A stretch of DNA of 64,000 nucleotides from Cloacibacterium caeni (GTDB lineage Bacteria; Bacteroidota; Bacteroidia; Flavobacteriales; Weeksellaceae). Every line of letters starts with the position of its first letter. Position 1 is the stretch's first letter. Below the pieces are notes generated by a model. It saw only the letters and a list, made by a program, of their open reading frames with translations, ran no database searches and was not told where the DNA came from. The translations under genes and the position numbers were made by a program. The DNA lies in NCBI RefSeq assembly GCF_907163125.1, contig NZ_OU015319.1, forward strand, positions 1,736,001 to 1,800,000, read 5' to 3'. Below are positions 39,100 through 59,247 of the stretch, one piece after another.

Positions 39100-39151
39100 C
39101 TATAAAAGAACTTCTACTCTAATTCGGGTAAAAGAGCAGTCAAGTTTGGGG

Positions 39152-39229
39152 TTTGTTCGTGGTTTCTTCGTGTTTCCTTCGAATCAGCCTCGGAAAAGTA
39201 CCCAAAATCACGAACAAACCACGAACAAA
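39152..39229. repeat. Inverted repeat with 21-bp arms
   Basis: The left arm TTTGTTCGTGGTTTCTTCGT(G) at 39152-39172 pairs with 39209-39229 with one mismatch, around a 36-nt loop. The arms themselves consist of repeated TTCGTG/CACGAA words. Confidence 0.65.
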
Positions 39230-39336
39230 TGTAAAAGGAAACTCAACTCAGACCCTAACTTGATTCGAGGAAAATCTTATCAATATTTAACAATCCTTTA
39301 AAACAAGCTCTGCTAAAAATTCCCTATTTTTGAGCA

Positions 39337-39966
39337 ATGCAAAATTCTTTAGAAATACTATTACAGCAGTTGCAAGACGCAGAGTTGGGCGGTTTTGATG
39401 CGCAAAAAGATTATGCGCCACCTTATCGTTCTCTGCTCACGCAAGAAGAAATTTTGGCCAAAAATCCTAAATACGCCGCCGTTAATATTTTACTCTATCC
39501 CAAAAACGGAGAATGGCACTTTCCGCTCATCCACAGAACCCACAATGAGAATGACAGACATTCTGGGCAAATTTCGCTTCCTGGTGGTAAAAAAGATGAC
39601 ACCGATGCAGATTTTGCAGAAACCGCCATCCGTGAAACTTGGGAAGAAATAGGCGTTACCACTTCACAAATCAAAATCGTGAGAGAACTCTCTCCTATTT
39701 ATATTCCGCCAAGTAATTTTTTCGTGTATGCTTTTCTGTCTTACTCCGAATCTTGGCCAGATTTTAATCACCAACAAACCGAAGTTCAAGAAATTCTAGA
39801 AGTTCCACTTTCTGTGATTCGAGATTTGCCAAAACCACCTTTAACCATGGAATTGCCACGAACCAATGGATATAAAGTTCCTTATTTTGATTTCCAAAAC
39901 CATAAAATTTGGGGTGCCACTTCTATGATTTTGAGTGAATTGAACGAGTTGCTAAAAAATGTTTAA
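39337..39966 (+). CDS. NUDIX hydrolase, CoA pyrophosphatase-like
   Basis: The 209-residue Nudix protein has a box ending RETWEEIGV (residues 99-107) preceded by the CoA-pyrophosphatase-type motif around HRTHNENDRHSGQISLPGG. It would hydrolyse CoA or related dinucleotides to 4'-phosphopantetheine and 3',5'-ADP. It stands alone between the repeat-rich region and the acyltransferase gene. Confidence 0.88.
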   Translation: MQNSLEILLQQLQDAELGGFDAQKDYAPPYRSLLTQEEILAKNPKYAAVNILLYPKNGEWHFPLIHRTHNENDRHSGQISLPGGKKDDTDADFAETAIRETWEEIGVTTSQIKIVRELSPIYIPPSNFFVYAFLSYSESWPDFNHQQTEVQEILEVPLSVIRDLPKPPLTMELPRTNGYKVPYFDFQNHKIWGATSMILSELNELLKNV

Positions 39967-40201
39967 ATTTGCAATCTGCATTTTGATGTTTAATTCATTA
40001 TCAAAAAATTTTTAAACCACAAAAGCCACAAAAGAAAAGCTTGAAAATAAGTCTTTCAAAAGAAGAAAAAGTATTGTTTAATCTTTTTCATTTTAGGAAA
40101 CTTTAAAACAAATATAGCTTTTGTCACTTTTTCGGTTAAAAATTAATAGCGCAGAAAAATCATTTGTGTTTAATAAAATTTGGCTTCAAGCTGCTTGAAA
40201 A

Positions 40202-48408: not shown

Positions 48409-49656
48409 ATGAAATCTTTTATAAATTATCCTCAAAATTCAGATTTTTCTATTCATAATATTCCTTTTGGTGTAGCGGTTTTTAACAGAGAATACATCGC
48501 TTGTTGTACCAGAATTGGCGATTTGGTGATAGACCTTGCTACTTTATACGATTACGGATTTTTTGACGAAATAGAAGGGTTAAATGAAAACGTTTTCGAA
48601 GCATACACGCTCAATGAATTTATAGAACTCGGAAAACCGGTAACCAATGCTGTTCGTTTAAAAATTCAGGAACTTTTATTAGAAGGTTCATCGCTGTCTC
48701 ATGACGAAAAAACCATAGAAGAATGTTTCTATGATTTAGATAAAGTACAAATGATGATGCCACTTCACGTACAGAATTATACTGATTTTTACAGCAGTAT
48801 AGAACACGCTACCAATGTGGGAAAAATGTTTCGTGACCCTGCAAATGCATTGCTCCCGAATTGGAAACATTTACCGGTAGGTTATCACGGTCGTGCTTCT
48901 TCTATCGTGGTTTCGGGAATTAATTTTCACAGACCAAAAGGTCAAATGAAACCTGCAGATGCAGAAAAACCAATTTTTGGTGCTTCAAAACAATTAGATT
49001 TTGAGCTAGAAATGGCTTTTGTATTGAATAAAAATACAGAAATTGGCGAAAGTATCTCTACTCAAGAAGCCGAAGATGCAATATTTGGAATGGTGATTTT
49101 TAACGATTGGAGTGCTAGAGACATTCAGAGTTGGGAATATGTTCCTCTTGGTCCATTTTTAGGGAAAAATTTCTGTTCGTCTATTTCACCTTGGGTGGTA
49201 ACCTTAGAAGCTTTAGAACCCTTTAGAACTGCATCACCAAAACAAGAACCTGAAGTTTTAGATTATCTGAAATTTGAAGGAGATAAAAATTTCGATATCA
49301 ACTTAGAAGTGTATTTACAACCAGAAAACGGCGAAGAAAACCTCATCTGCAAAAGCAATTACAAATACATGTACTGGAATATGACGCAACAATTGGCACA
49401 TCACACCATCAATGGTTGTAATGTGGAAGTTGGCGATTTATATGCTTCAGGAACGATTTCTGGAAGTGAACCGAATAGTTTTGGTTCAATGCTAGAATTG
49501 ACTTGGCGCGGACAAAACCCGCTAAAACTTTCAGATGGAACTGAAAGAAAATTTATAGAAGACCACGACACCATCATTATGAGAGGTTTCTCTGAAAAAA
49601 ACGGAATAAGAGTAGGTTTTGGAGAAGTAAGAGGAAAAGTTTTGCCAGCTAAGTAA
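48409..49656 (+). CDS. fahA: Fumarylacetoacetase
   Basis: It hydrolyses fumarylacetoacetate to fumarate and acetoacetate, the last step of tyrosine degradation. The 415-residue product has YTDFYSSIEHATNVGKMFRD (containing catalytic His and metal ligands), LPVGYHGRASSIV, LDFELEMAFV with metal-ligand Glu residues, FNDWSARDIQSWEYVPLGPF, and GTISGSEPNSFGSMLELTW. Maleylacetoacetate isomerase, needed between HmgA and FahA, is not in the window. Confidence 0.97.
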   Translation: MKSFINYPQNSDFSIHNIPFGVAVFNREYIACCTRIGDLVIDLATLYDYGFFDEIEGLNENVFEAYTLNEFIELGKPVTNAVRLKIQELLLEGSSLSHDEKTIEECFYDLDKVQMMMPLHVQNYTDFYSSIEHATNVGKMFRDPANALLPNWKHLPVGYHGRASSIVVSGINFHRPKGQMKPADAEKPIFGASKQLDFELEMAFVLNKNTEIGESISTQEAEDAIFGMVIFNDWSARDIQSWEYVPLGPFLGKNFCSSISPWVVTLEALEPFRTASPKQEPEVLDYLKFEGDKNFDINLEVYLQPENGEENLICKSNYKYMYWNMTQQLAHHTINGCNVEVGDLYASGTISGSEPNSFGSMLELTWRGQNPLKLSDGTERKFIEDHDTIIMRGFSEKNGIRVGFGEVRGKVLPAK

Positions 49657-49690
49657 GTTATGAAAGTGATATGGTTATAAAAGTTAAAAA
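49656..49690. repeat. Left inverted arm flanking the four-helix-bundle gene
   Basis: This contains GTTATGAAAGTGATATGGTT followed by ATAAAAGTTA. It aligns, with a few changes and small gaps, to the reverse complement of 50080-50118. It begins at the fahA stop codon. Confidence 0.55.
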
Positions 49691-49711
49691 GTAGAGATTT
49701 TAGAATAATAT

Positions 49712-50074
49712 ATGTCAAAAATAAATTCACATAAAGACTTAAAAGTTTGGCAAGAATCCATGGATTTTGTTGTAGAAATCTATAAACTTTTAGAACAATT
49801 TCCAGATGAAGAAAAATTTATACTTACTAATCAAATAAAAAGAGCAGCCATTTCTATTCCTTCTAATATTGCAGAAGGAGCTGGTAGAGAATCAAATCAA
49901 GAATTCTTTAGATTTCTTAGTATTTCTCAAGGCTCACTTTCAGAGCTTGAAACTCAATTAGAAATTGCTGAAAAATTAAAATATATCACTTTAAATGATG
50001 AAATAAAAAAACAAATAATTTTCATTAGAATAATGCTGACTAATCTCAAAAAATCATTAATCAATAAAAAGTAA
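49712..50074 (+). CDS. Four-helix-bundle protein, 23S rRNA intervening-sequence type
   Basis: This 120-residue helical protein carries the S23/IVP family signature: KDLKVWQESMDFVVEIYKL, the central IKRAAISIPSNIAEGAGR, and FFRFLSISQGSLSELETQLE. Homologues are encoded inside intervening sequences of 23S rRNA genes and as dispersed single genes; the molecular function is not established. Here it sits between fahA and a flavin reductase gene that would otherwise be neighbours, bracketed by imperfect inverted repeats, which suggests insertion as a small mobile cassette. Confidence 0.9.
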   Translation: MSKINSHKDLKVWQESMDFVVEIYKLLEQFPDEEKFILTNQIKRAAISIPSNIAEGAGRESNQEFFRFLSISQGSLSELETQLEIAEKLKYITLNDEIKKQIIFIRIMLTNLKKSLINKK

Positions 50075-50079
50075 AAACT

Positions 50080-50118
50080 TTCATAACTTGTATAACATTT
50101 ATAACTTTCATCGCTTTA
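50080..50118. repeat. Right inverted arm flanking the four-helix-bundle gene
   Basis: This contains three ATAAC words at 9-bp spacing within ACTTTCATAACTTGTATAAC and the following bases. Its complement repeats ATGAAAGT, GTTATA and AAGTTA in the order of the left arm. Confidence 0.55.
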
Positions 50119-50125
50119 ATATAAA

Positions 50126-50947
50126 ATGAAAACAATCAATCCATCAGAATTATCACCAATGCAAGTGCAAATGATTTTGCAAACGGCTGTTTCTCCGCGA
50201 CCTATCGCACTGGCTTCTACCATAGACAAAAACGGAAATGTGAATCTTTCGCCGTTTAGTTTTTTTAATTTATTCAGTTCTAATCCACCAATTTTAATTT
50301 TTTCTCCAGCAAGAAGAGTTCGAGATAATTCTACAAAAGACACACTTCATAATGTGCTAGAAGTTCCAGAAGTGGTGATTGGAAACGTGAATTTTGATAT
50401 GGTTCAGCAAGTTTCCCTTTCGTCTACAGAATATGAAACGAGTGTAGATGAATTTATTAAATCTGGATTAACTAAAAAACCAGCAGAATTAGTAAAACCA
50501 CCACTCATTACAGAATCACCCGTGAATTTTGAATGCAAAGTCATCGAGGTAAAACCTCTTGGAAACGAAGGTGGCGCTGGAAATTTAGTCATCTGCGAAG
50601 TTTTAAAAATTCATATCAGAGAAGAGTTTTTAAATGAAGAAGGAAACCTAGATCAGAAAAAACTAGATTTGGTTTCTAGACTAGGCGGAAACTGGTACGG
50701 AAGAACAACTCCAGAAACTTTATTCGAAGTTCCAAAACCATTGGTTACCAAAGGAATTGGCTTTGATCAATTGCCTTCAGAAATTAAACATTCCAAAGTT
50801 TTTACAGGAAATGATTTAGGAATGTTGGCGAATGTAGAACAACTCCCAGAAGGAAATTTCTTCGCAGATGAAAATTTACATCTAGAAGCTCAAAACCTGC
50901 TTTTAGAAGGCGAAATAGAGGAAGCTTGGAAAGTTTTAACTCAATAA
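50126..50947 (+). CDS. Flavin reductase-family protein (FMN-binding split barrel)
   Basis: The 273-residue protein has the flavin-reductase pattern: VSPRPIALASTIDKNGNVNL, SPFSFFNLFSSNPPILIFSP, RDNSTKDTLHNV, and VIGNVNFDMVQQVSLSS. Such proteins bind FMN and supply reduced flavin, or act as oxidoreductases. It lies directly after the tyrosine-pathway genes apart from the inserted four-helix-bundle gene. The next gene starts 5 bp downstream, suggesting cotranscription. Confidence 0.85.
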   Translation: MKTINPSELSPMQVQMILQTAVSPRPIALASTIDKNGNVNLSPFSFFNLFSSNPPILIFSPARRVRDNSTKDTLHNVLEVPEVVIGNVNFDMVQQVSLSSTEYETSVDEFIKSGLTKKPAELVKPPLITESPVNFECKVIEVKPLGNEGGAGNLVICEVLKIHIREEFLNEEGNLDQKKLDLVSRLGGNWYGRTTPETLFEVPKPLVTKGIGFDQLPSEIKHSKVFTGNDLGMLANVEQLPEGNFFADENLHLEAQNLLLEGEIEEAWKVLTQ

Positions 50948-59177: not shown

Positions 59178-59247
59178 TTTCGAGTTTCGAGTTCCGAGTT
59201 CCGAGTTACCAAATGCGAATCTCATAACTCGAATCCCGTAACTCAAT
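59178..59247. repeat. Heptamer tandem tract with inverted arms
   Basis: Ten uninterrupted 7-bp units: TTTCGAG twice, TTCCGAG twice, then TTACCAA, ATGCGAA, TCTCATA, ACTCGAA, TCCCGTA, ACTCAAT. The left words (TTnCGAG) are the reverse complement of the right words (CTCGAAn), so the tract is also an inverted repeat. It fills the cinA-lipA gap. Confidence 0.75.

Follow-up and report, generated by a model that had tools for sequence, protein, structure and literature searches.

The S23 (23S_rRNA_IVP) protein family, ribosomal RNA (rRNA) intervening sequences (IVSs) with terminal stems, RAYT/REP elements and intergenic heptamer repeats are all known already. Here we describe an S23 gene, encoding a four-helix-bundle protein, that lies between fahA and a flavin reductase gene in a 64,000-nucleotide stretch of the Cloacibacterium caeni genome (contig NZ_OU015319.1, positions 1,736,001 to 1,800,000; hereafter the window), together with its relatives in other genomes. 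We regard it as fairly probable that such genes are the core of short mobile cassettes, composed of tandem-unit arms around one S23 gene, that encode an accessory binder and are mobilised in trans.

RAYT, REP, BIME and REPIN systems consist of a small gene flanked by inverted repeats, alongside scattered palindromes that contain no gene. The S23 family resembles them in its inverted repeats on both sides and its dispersed gene-less relatives, a likeness seen at the level of the family; RAYT/REP elements differ in having an HUH transposase and short GC-rich hairpins, whereas S23 cassettes lack the former and carry degenerate tandem arrays. Cyanobacterial short tandemly repeated repetitive sequences (STRRs) are heptamer-type intergenic repeats comparable to S23 arms. 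The 23S rRNA IVSs of Coxiella and Leptospira contain the same protein family and, at about 430–460 nt, consist of one open reading frame (ORF) between pairing terminal arms. An excerpt of PMC4990558 gives the Coxiella IVS a 28-bp stem and reports that mobile origins have been proposed for rRNA IVSs with terminal stems, and in 2024 23S_rRNA_IVP ORFs were described in inserts of the 16S and 23S genes of candidate phyla radiation (CPR) bacteria (PMC11270868, excerpt). These IVSs sit in rRNA, whereas the cassette described here lies between protein genes; unlike them, its arms are tandem repeats that vary from copy to copy, and there are many copies per genome.

Intergenic heptamers are known as GGGAATC in Xanthomonas, for which the authors report no general link to mobile elements (PMC4692102, excerpt), as GGGGA(T/C)T in Nostoc, treated together with the Xanthomonas repeat in the source excerpt, and as TAACTGA in Beggiatoaceae, cyanobacteria and five Bacteroidetes, whose author sees no apparent means of transmission (PMC4679880, excerpt). 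Like S23 arms, they are degenerate 7-nt arrays at gene junctions, some of them inverted; in these excerpts they are described without an associated gene, whereas GGGAATC and CGAGTTN are observed here as S23 arms. In the P6b stem of the Nostoc tRNA-Leu intron, two 7-nt motif classes also form a paired stem, but one that lies within a group I intron and for which the excerpt of PMC4476775 reports no S23 ORF. A link between S23 genes and heptamer arms was not found in the open-licence PMC papers searched, although subscription papers may contain it. The locus comprises the following features, the last of them further along the window.

49712–50074, plus strand: gene for the S23 / 23S_rRNA_IVP four-helix-bundle protein, 120 aa (PF05635, TIGR02436, PDB 2gsc)
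49655–49693, no strand: left (5') arm, overlapping the fahA stop codon at its start; degenerate tandem units GTTATGAAA/GTGATATG/GTTATAAAA/GTTAAAAAG
50077–50116, no strand: right (3') arm, inverted, whose complement reads GCGATGAAA/GTTATAAAT/GTTATACAA/GTTATGAAA, period 9
48409–49656, plus strand: fahA (fumarylacetoacetase), upstream co-directional host gene (TIGR01266 4.1e-167)
50126–50947, plus strand: gene for a flavin-reductase-domain (Flavin_Reduct) protein, downstream co-directional host gene (PF01613 1.5e-14)
59179–59246, no strand: palindrome of CGAGTTN heptamers with no gene inside, flanked by two minus-strand genes that we take to be cinA-like and lipA-like; unit family of the arms of loci L035 and L044

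Profile searches place the window ORF in the S23 family, with matches to PF05635 at 5.7e-39 (133 bits, curated cut-off 33.8) and to TIGR02436 at 1.4e-37 (128.3 bits, curated cut-off 24), and PDB 2gsc is a structural relative of its protein (2.2e-29). At a Pfam threshold of 0.001 the only matches were 23S_rRNA_IVP and bAvd, with no HUH (Y1) transposase, and Rfam at gathering score returned only a tRNA and an S15 leader in the whole window. The initial annotation, made from the sequence alone, had named an S23/IVP-type gene between fahA and a flavin reductase gene, which these profiles and those of both neighbours bear out. It had also seen imperfect inverted repeats of about 30 bp on either side. 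When the 150 nt on the left were locally aligned with the complement of the 150 nt on the right (match +1, mismatch -1, gap -2/-1), the score was 20, compared with a mean of 11.9 for dinucleotide shuffles of the two flanks, of which 6 in 2000 reached 20; the arms are therefore upheld, while their extent is corrected to a cassette of about 49655–50116, given that the fahA stop codon is where the left arm starts. RNA folding predicts that the arms pair with each other around the entire ORF (z -2.18; an equally good fold in 2 of 100 shuffles), and the likeness to 23S IVSs drawn in the same annotation stands for this layout and is limited to it. An unguided inverted-repeat scan of the AT-rich window did not single out the arm pair (165 tile pairs at a score of at least 19, compared with 128 in one shuffled window), which is distinctive only through its geometry around the gene.

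Inverted arms accompany most S23 genes across the genus and beyond it. The window's genome, G000 in our labelling of genomes (G) and loci (L), contains 13 PF05635 genes, and the seven genomes of the genus contain 49 (13, 5, 8, 3, 9, 7 and 4), falling into 24 groups by flanking DNA; one group spans two adjacent sites, presumably hisH-hisA and hisA-hisF, and L041 is cut by a contig end beside an L011-type flank. When each copy's left 150 nt was compared with the complement of its right 150 nt, scores of at least 18 were obtained for 40 of 48 testable genus copies and for 7 of 471 slid controls, in which the pair of 150-nt windows was moved 700–1300 nt along the same locus. The median score was 22 within copies and 12 between different copies (99th percentile 26, orthologues included), and for 37 of the 48 left arms the copy's own right arm was equalled by at most three others; the window arms were rivalled only by those of the orthologue L018. 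In other genomes from about ten phyla, 50 of 76 testable copies reached 18, compared with 12 of 731 slid controls. These copies derive from the best 80 loci of one scan of named genomes, spanning Bacteroidota, Acidobacteriota, Nitrospirota, Chloroflexi, Cyanobacteria, several proteobacterial classes, Planctomycetes, Ignavibacteria, Endomicrobiales and others. Another 30 loci from 11 genomes of this set (11 repeated copies with identical arms, one cut) yielded 18 new testable copies, 15 of them scoring at least 18, and a wider family sample was weaker, with 12 of 26 reaching this score (slid controls 2 of 259). One S23 gene, at L331 in G128, lies inside very long arms with a score of 60 and AGTGTATAG-like units.

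Comparison of sites indicates that arms and gene behave as one unit, which is present or absent per site and is able to occupy another site. A chimeric query of flank pieces was searched against the genus for 24 sites and PF05635 positions were checked; at 22 or more of these sites, at least one congener has both flanks but no S23 gene in between. Among the matches listed, L002 had occupied sites only and L008 had no other site. In six cases (L003, L013, L031, L035, L043 and L047_1501) a congener's site is nearly clean, its flanks being no more than 25 nt apart; other S23-less sites contain different sequence, in many cases a short palindrome or array. L009 in G000 and L034 in G002 encode proteins that are 84% identical, at two sites roughly 2.5–3 kb apart in the same neighbourhood; at the DNA level they are homologous from the left arm through the gene to the right arm (from -55 to 36 nt past the stop) and no further. 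Because this homology includes the arms and stops at their ends, the unit moves with its arms. The G000 site matching L034 retains a gene-less array resembling the right arm. L014 (G001) and L028 (G004) share flanking genes but have unrelated arms (cross scores of 8 and 10, compared with 21 and 21 within copies), and are absent from the list of protein pairs above 60% identity; on these two grounds they are probably two independent S23 insertions at one site. Elsewhere, at the L035 site, G000 has a different 79-aa ORF (L113) where two congeners have S23, beside a AAGAGCCAAGTAAAAAGT-type repeat; this ORF had no Pfam match at 0.001.

The initial annotation had proposed that the gene and its paired arms move together and are not restricted to rRNA. 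The first proposal agrees with the sharing of both by L009 and L034 at two sites and the second with a crude motif scan, which detected no 23S gene in any of 129 S23 loci; the two checks it had suggested, for S23-less sites in related genomes and for inverted arms flanking other copies, came out positive at most sites and copies. At the fahA-flavin reductase junction itself, S23 is present in G000 and G006 (L018) and missing from G001, G002 and G005; these three carry there a 137-aa gene of PF13366 (PD-(D/E)XK superfamily), the family we take to be 'GxxExxY', with long inverted arms; G003 and G004 were not among the matches listed. Two cassette kinds therefore use the junction. The initial annotation had overlooked this second occupant, together with the copy-specific tandem structure of the arms, the bias towards operon sense and the gene-less forms. 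Across the genus, arm scores of at least 18 were found for 15 of 27 PF13366 genes, compared with 11 of 265 slid controls, and both neighbours were co-directional in 25 of 27. The PF13366 arms of L083, L084 and L085 (G001, G002 and G005) and of L130, L146 and L148 are partly tandem-repeated on the left. In the window itself, a gene-less inverted pair at 40007–40144, AACCACAAAAGCCACAAAAG / AACCGAAAAAGTGACAAAAG, resembles the arms of the PF13366 copies L142 and L143 and may be a relic, and another inverted repeat without a gene (GGTTTGTTCGTG...CACGAACAAACC, 39113–39268) lies upstream of a plus-strand ORF at 39337.

Placement of the genes and selection on them bring in a different explanation, in which S23 is a domesticated host operon gene whose arms serve only as an RNA stem, insulating or stabilising the S23 portion of the mRNA, with RNase III involved and rare moves by ordinary recombination. 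Both neighbours lie on the S23 strand in 124 of the 133 copies for which both could be called (ORFs of at least 100 aa within 400 nt; 150 copies in all, some of them orthologues), compared with a window baseline of 30 of 49 genes. The genus copies sit at stop/start junctions, many within operon-like runs of ordinary metabolic genes. For orthologous S23 genes at fixed sites, dN/dS (Nei-Gojobori, computed for the S23 genes only) was at most 0.18 in 27 of 36 pairs and 0.23 and 0.26 in two; of the remainder, three exceeded 0.3 with very few changes and four were undefined. Pairs with dS of 0.6–0.9 had values of 0.02–0.10, and the window copy and its G006 counterpart gave 0.05. These low ratios indicate that the S23 protein matters where it sits and is under purifying selection at fixed sites. 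Such selection, the operon-sense placement, the pairing of the arms in the predicted RNA fold and the cleavage of the Coxiella IVS by RNase III in vitro (PMC4990558, excerpt) all suit a domesticated gene. We nevertheless consider this explanation unlikely, given the S23-less congeners at nearly all sites, the presence of S23 matches in 103 of 120 family genomes at 1 to 17 copies each, and the existence of gene-less palindromes of the same arm families.

Copy numbers in the same 120 family genomes bear on a second alternative, namely that a trans-acting HUH (Y1/RAYT-like) or other host transposase mobilises the palindromes, with S23 as a passenger. S23 and Y1_Tnp copy numbers are correlated (Spearman 0.59; 0.46 given genome size), as are those of S23 and PF13366 (0.60; 0.40 given genome size) and S23 number and genome size itself (0.57). 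Y1 genes are similarly placed between inverted repeats, 19 of 20 chosen Y1_Tnp (RAYT-like) loci scoring at least 18 in what also served as a positive control of the arm test. However, no Y1 match was found in 6 of the 63 genomes carrying at least five S23 genes (three of the 63 have neither Y1_Tnp nor PF13366), and the Y1 flanks seen are short GC-rich hairpins and not heptamer arrays. A transposase with S23 as its passenger is thus, in our assessment, distinctly unlikely. The Y1_Tnp loci in question, L255–L274, have short inverted hairpins (e.g. GCTCCGTAGGAGC) on both sides; Y1_Tnp is present in 76 of the 120 genomes.

The arms as a class are degenerate heptamer arrays. In 95 arm pairs (score of at least 18, repeated loci removed, orthologues kept), mean autocorrelation was 0.59 at lag 7, 0.53 at lag 14 and 0.35 at lag 8, with 0.25–0.30 at the other lags from 4 to 15 and 0.32 at lag 7 for shuffled arms. 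The best lag was 7 or 14 in 56 of the 95, 8 in 13, 9 in two and 12 in one, none being clear in 23, and a clear heptamer in both arms was present in 69 of 149 copies. Judged as STRR-like heptamer repeats, the class thus has the lag-7 signal, and the window copy has longer units, its right arm reaching 0.69 at lag 9 and its left arm 0.49 at lag 8 and 0.47 at lag 9. Sites tend to have a private tandem unit, such as GGTATTT, GTTGTTG, AGCAATC, GTGAAATC, AGAGTTGT or TTACGAG, and a common grammar is nevertheless discernible. Once the phase is fitted, the average unit begins A-G-T-A and is variable thereafter; when no phase is fitted, 14 of 65 distinct units contain AGTA (maximum 9 in 2000 shuffles) and 21 of 65 contain AGT (maximum 18 in shuffles). 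The 5' arm contains more G than C in 82 of 90 copies, orthologues included, with the reverse in 7 and a tie in one. Arm likeness is confined to the closest proteins, scores of at least 14 being found in 38% of 21 pairs in the top protein-similarity bin, 5.7% in the second and 0 to 1.2% in the five lower bins. In most copies, then, the arm sequences are private, and only close relatives share similar ones.

Palindromes that have such arms but no gene are also dispersed in these genomes. CGAGTTN is the arm unit of the S23 copies L035 (G001) and L044 (G005), and CGAGTTNCGAGTTNCGAG (at most one mismatch) occurs in all seven genus genomes, with 4 to 27 matches each when overlapping matches of one array are counted apart, and no match to the reversed pattern. 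Among 20 such loci read, 18 lie away from S23 genes, many being palindromes with a short loop; 16 lie between ORFs, all 20 have neighbours on one strand and several are mutual orthologues. If S23 cassettes are the source of literature heptamers, a GGGAATC-rich genome should carry an S23 gene with GGGAATC arms. This expectation held in the single genome on which the test rests: three tandem GGGAATC units, with at most one mismatch, were found in 1 of 369 genomes of one class, G497 (19 matches), whose only PF05635 match, in an apparently frameshifted gene, is flanked by GGGAATC GGCAATG GGGAATC GGGAATC on the left and GATTCCC TACTCCC CATTCCC GATTCCC on the right. We read its neighbours as accB and accC. 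Eight matches to the reversed GGGAATC control were seen in one other genome, G285, perhaps another heptamer family. A weaker third case is GGGAGTN, the arm of the cyanobacterial copy L311 (G120), which is matched 523 times in G120 and no more than 10 times in any of 12 further genomes, but for which the reversed control gave 231 in G120 and up to 17 elsewhere.

Heptamer arrays could also arise by polymerase slippage, with S23 merely landing in, or recombining at, pre-existing palindromic arrays. Slippage has been proposed as the origin of heptamer repeats (PMC4679880, excerpt), gene-less heptamer palindromes occupy the same type of junction and several S23-less sites hold other short arrays. 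The six nearly clean sites, the travelling of arms with the gene and the excess of S23 flank scores over slid controls all argue against this origin, and we give it little credence.

The bacterial Avd protein of diversity-generating retroelements (DGRs) is a related four-helix bundle by profile match, although the window protein reaches 28 bits against a cut-off of 80 for DGR Avd (NF033474) and its two neighbours are metabolic genes. The least probable explanation is a reverse transcriptase (RT)-based route in which S23, as a relative of Avd, would help an RT in trans to copy hairpin RNA: the sense-in-operon placement would fit an RNA intermediate and the window protein does match bAvd (1.3e-4) and DGR Avd (2e-6), both below curated cut-offs, but neither neighbouring ORF is an RT, the search having covered these two neighbours.

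The mobile cassette with an S23 core that we favour would operate as follows. Inverted arms of tandem 7–9-nt units around one S23 gene would insert in sense at junctions where the stop codon of a gene is followed by its neighbour's start codon, and S23 would be expressed from the host operon. The arms would pair into a stem around the ORF, either in the transcribed RNA or, at the replication fork, in single-stranded DNA, and an S23 oligomer may bind the tandem units on RNA or single-stranded DNA, perhaps with one subunit per unit. We take S23-family proteins to be pentamers, as reported, consistent with the five chains in each of the solved relatives 2gsc and 2rld. The bound stem could shield the host transcript, or the hairpin could be copied elsewhere by enzymes supplied in trans, S23 acting as an accessory nucleic-acid binder and not as a catalyst. 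Gene-less hairpins would then be non-autonomous offspring of S23 cassettes, as REPs are held to be of RAYT genes.

Several observations weigh against this mechanism. No transposition event was seen in the genome comparisons, and no clear target-site duplication emerged between filled and S23-less sites with ends read by eye, the arms changing too fast for the cassette ends to be fixed. The window protein has no catalytic domain by Pfam match, and an element that is purely selfish would hardly be expected to show purifying selection at its fixed sites. Copies without clear arms (score below 18) make up 8 of 48 in the genus, 26 of 76 in other genomes and 14 of 26 in the family sample; 10 of the 48 genus left arms are matched at least equally well by five or more foreign right arms (L001, L003, L008, L009, L015, L022, L023, L026, L034 and L040); and the units of the window copy measure 8–9 nt and not 7 nt. 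A code linking arm and protein sequence was considered and rejected (Spearman 0.014 over 3878 non-orthologous pairs, a value reached by 185 of 500 Mantel permutations), and this lack of covariation at depth speaks against sequence-specific recognition. Compensatory change was likewise not seen, within-copy and cross-orthologue scores being about equal in 12 of 13 groups (L014/L028 is the exception), so that base-pair compensation between the arms is not demonstrated.

A broader proposal, which we hold tentatively and at somewhat less than even confidence, is that S23 cassettes are a separate class of mobile element without a recombinase of their own, with private heptamer termini that follow a common grammar (G-rich 5' arm, AG(T)(A) core, fixed polarity towards the centre), and that they are the source of the heptamer repeats of Xanthomonas, cyanobacteria, Bacteroidetes and others, GxxExxY nuclease-like genes being a second core. 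The layout of S23 genes in many bacteria suggests a mobile element and a potential source of seven-letter DNA repeats. It joins two loose ends, the role and spread of S23/IVP genes and the origin of intergenic heptamer repeats; if S23 cassettes are indeed the gene-bearing form of heptamer repeats, both questions would become testable with one protein and one repeat array.

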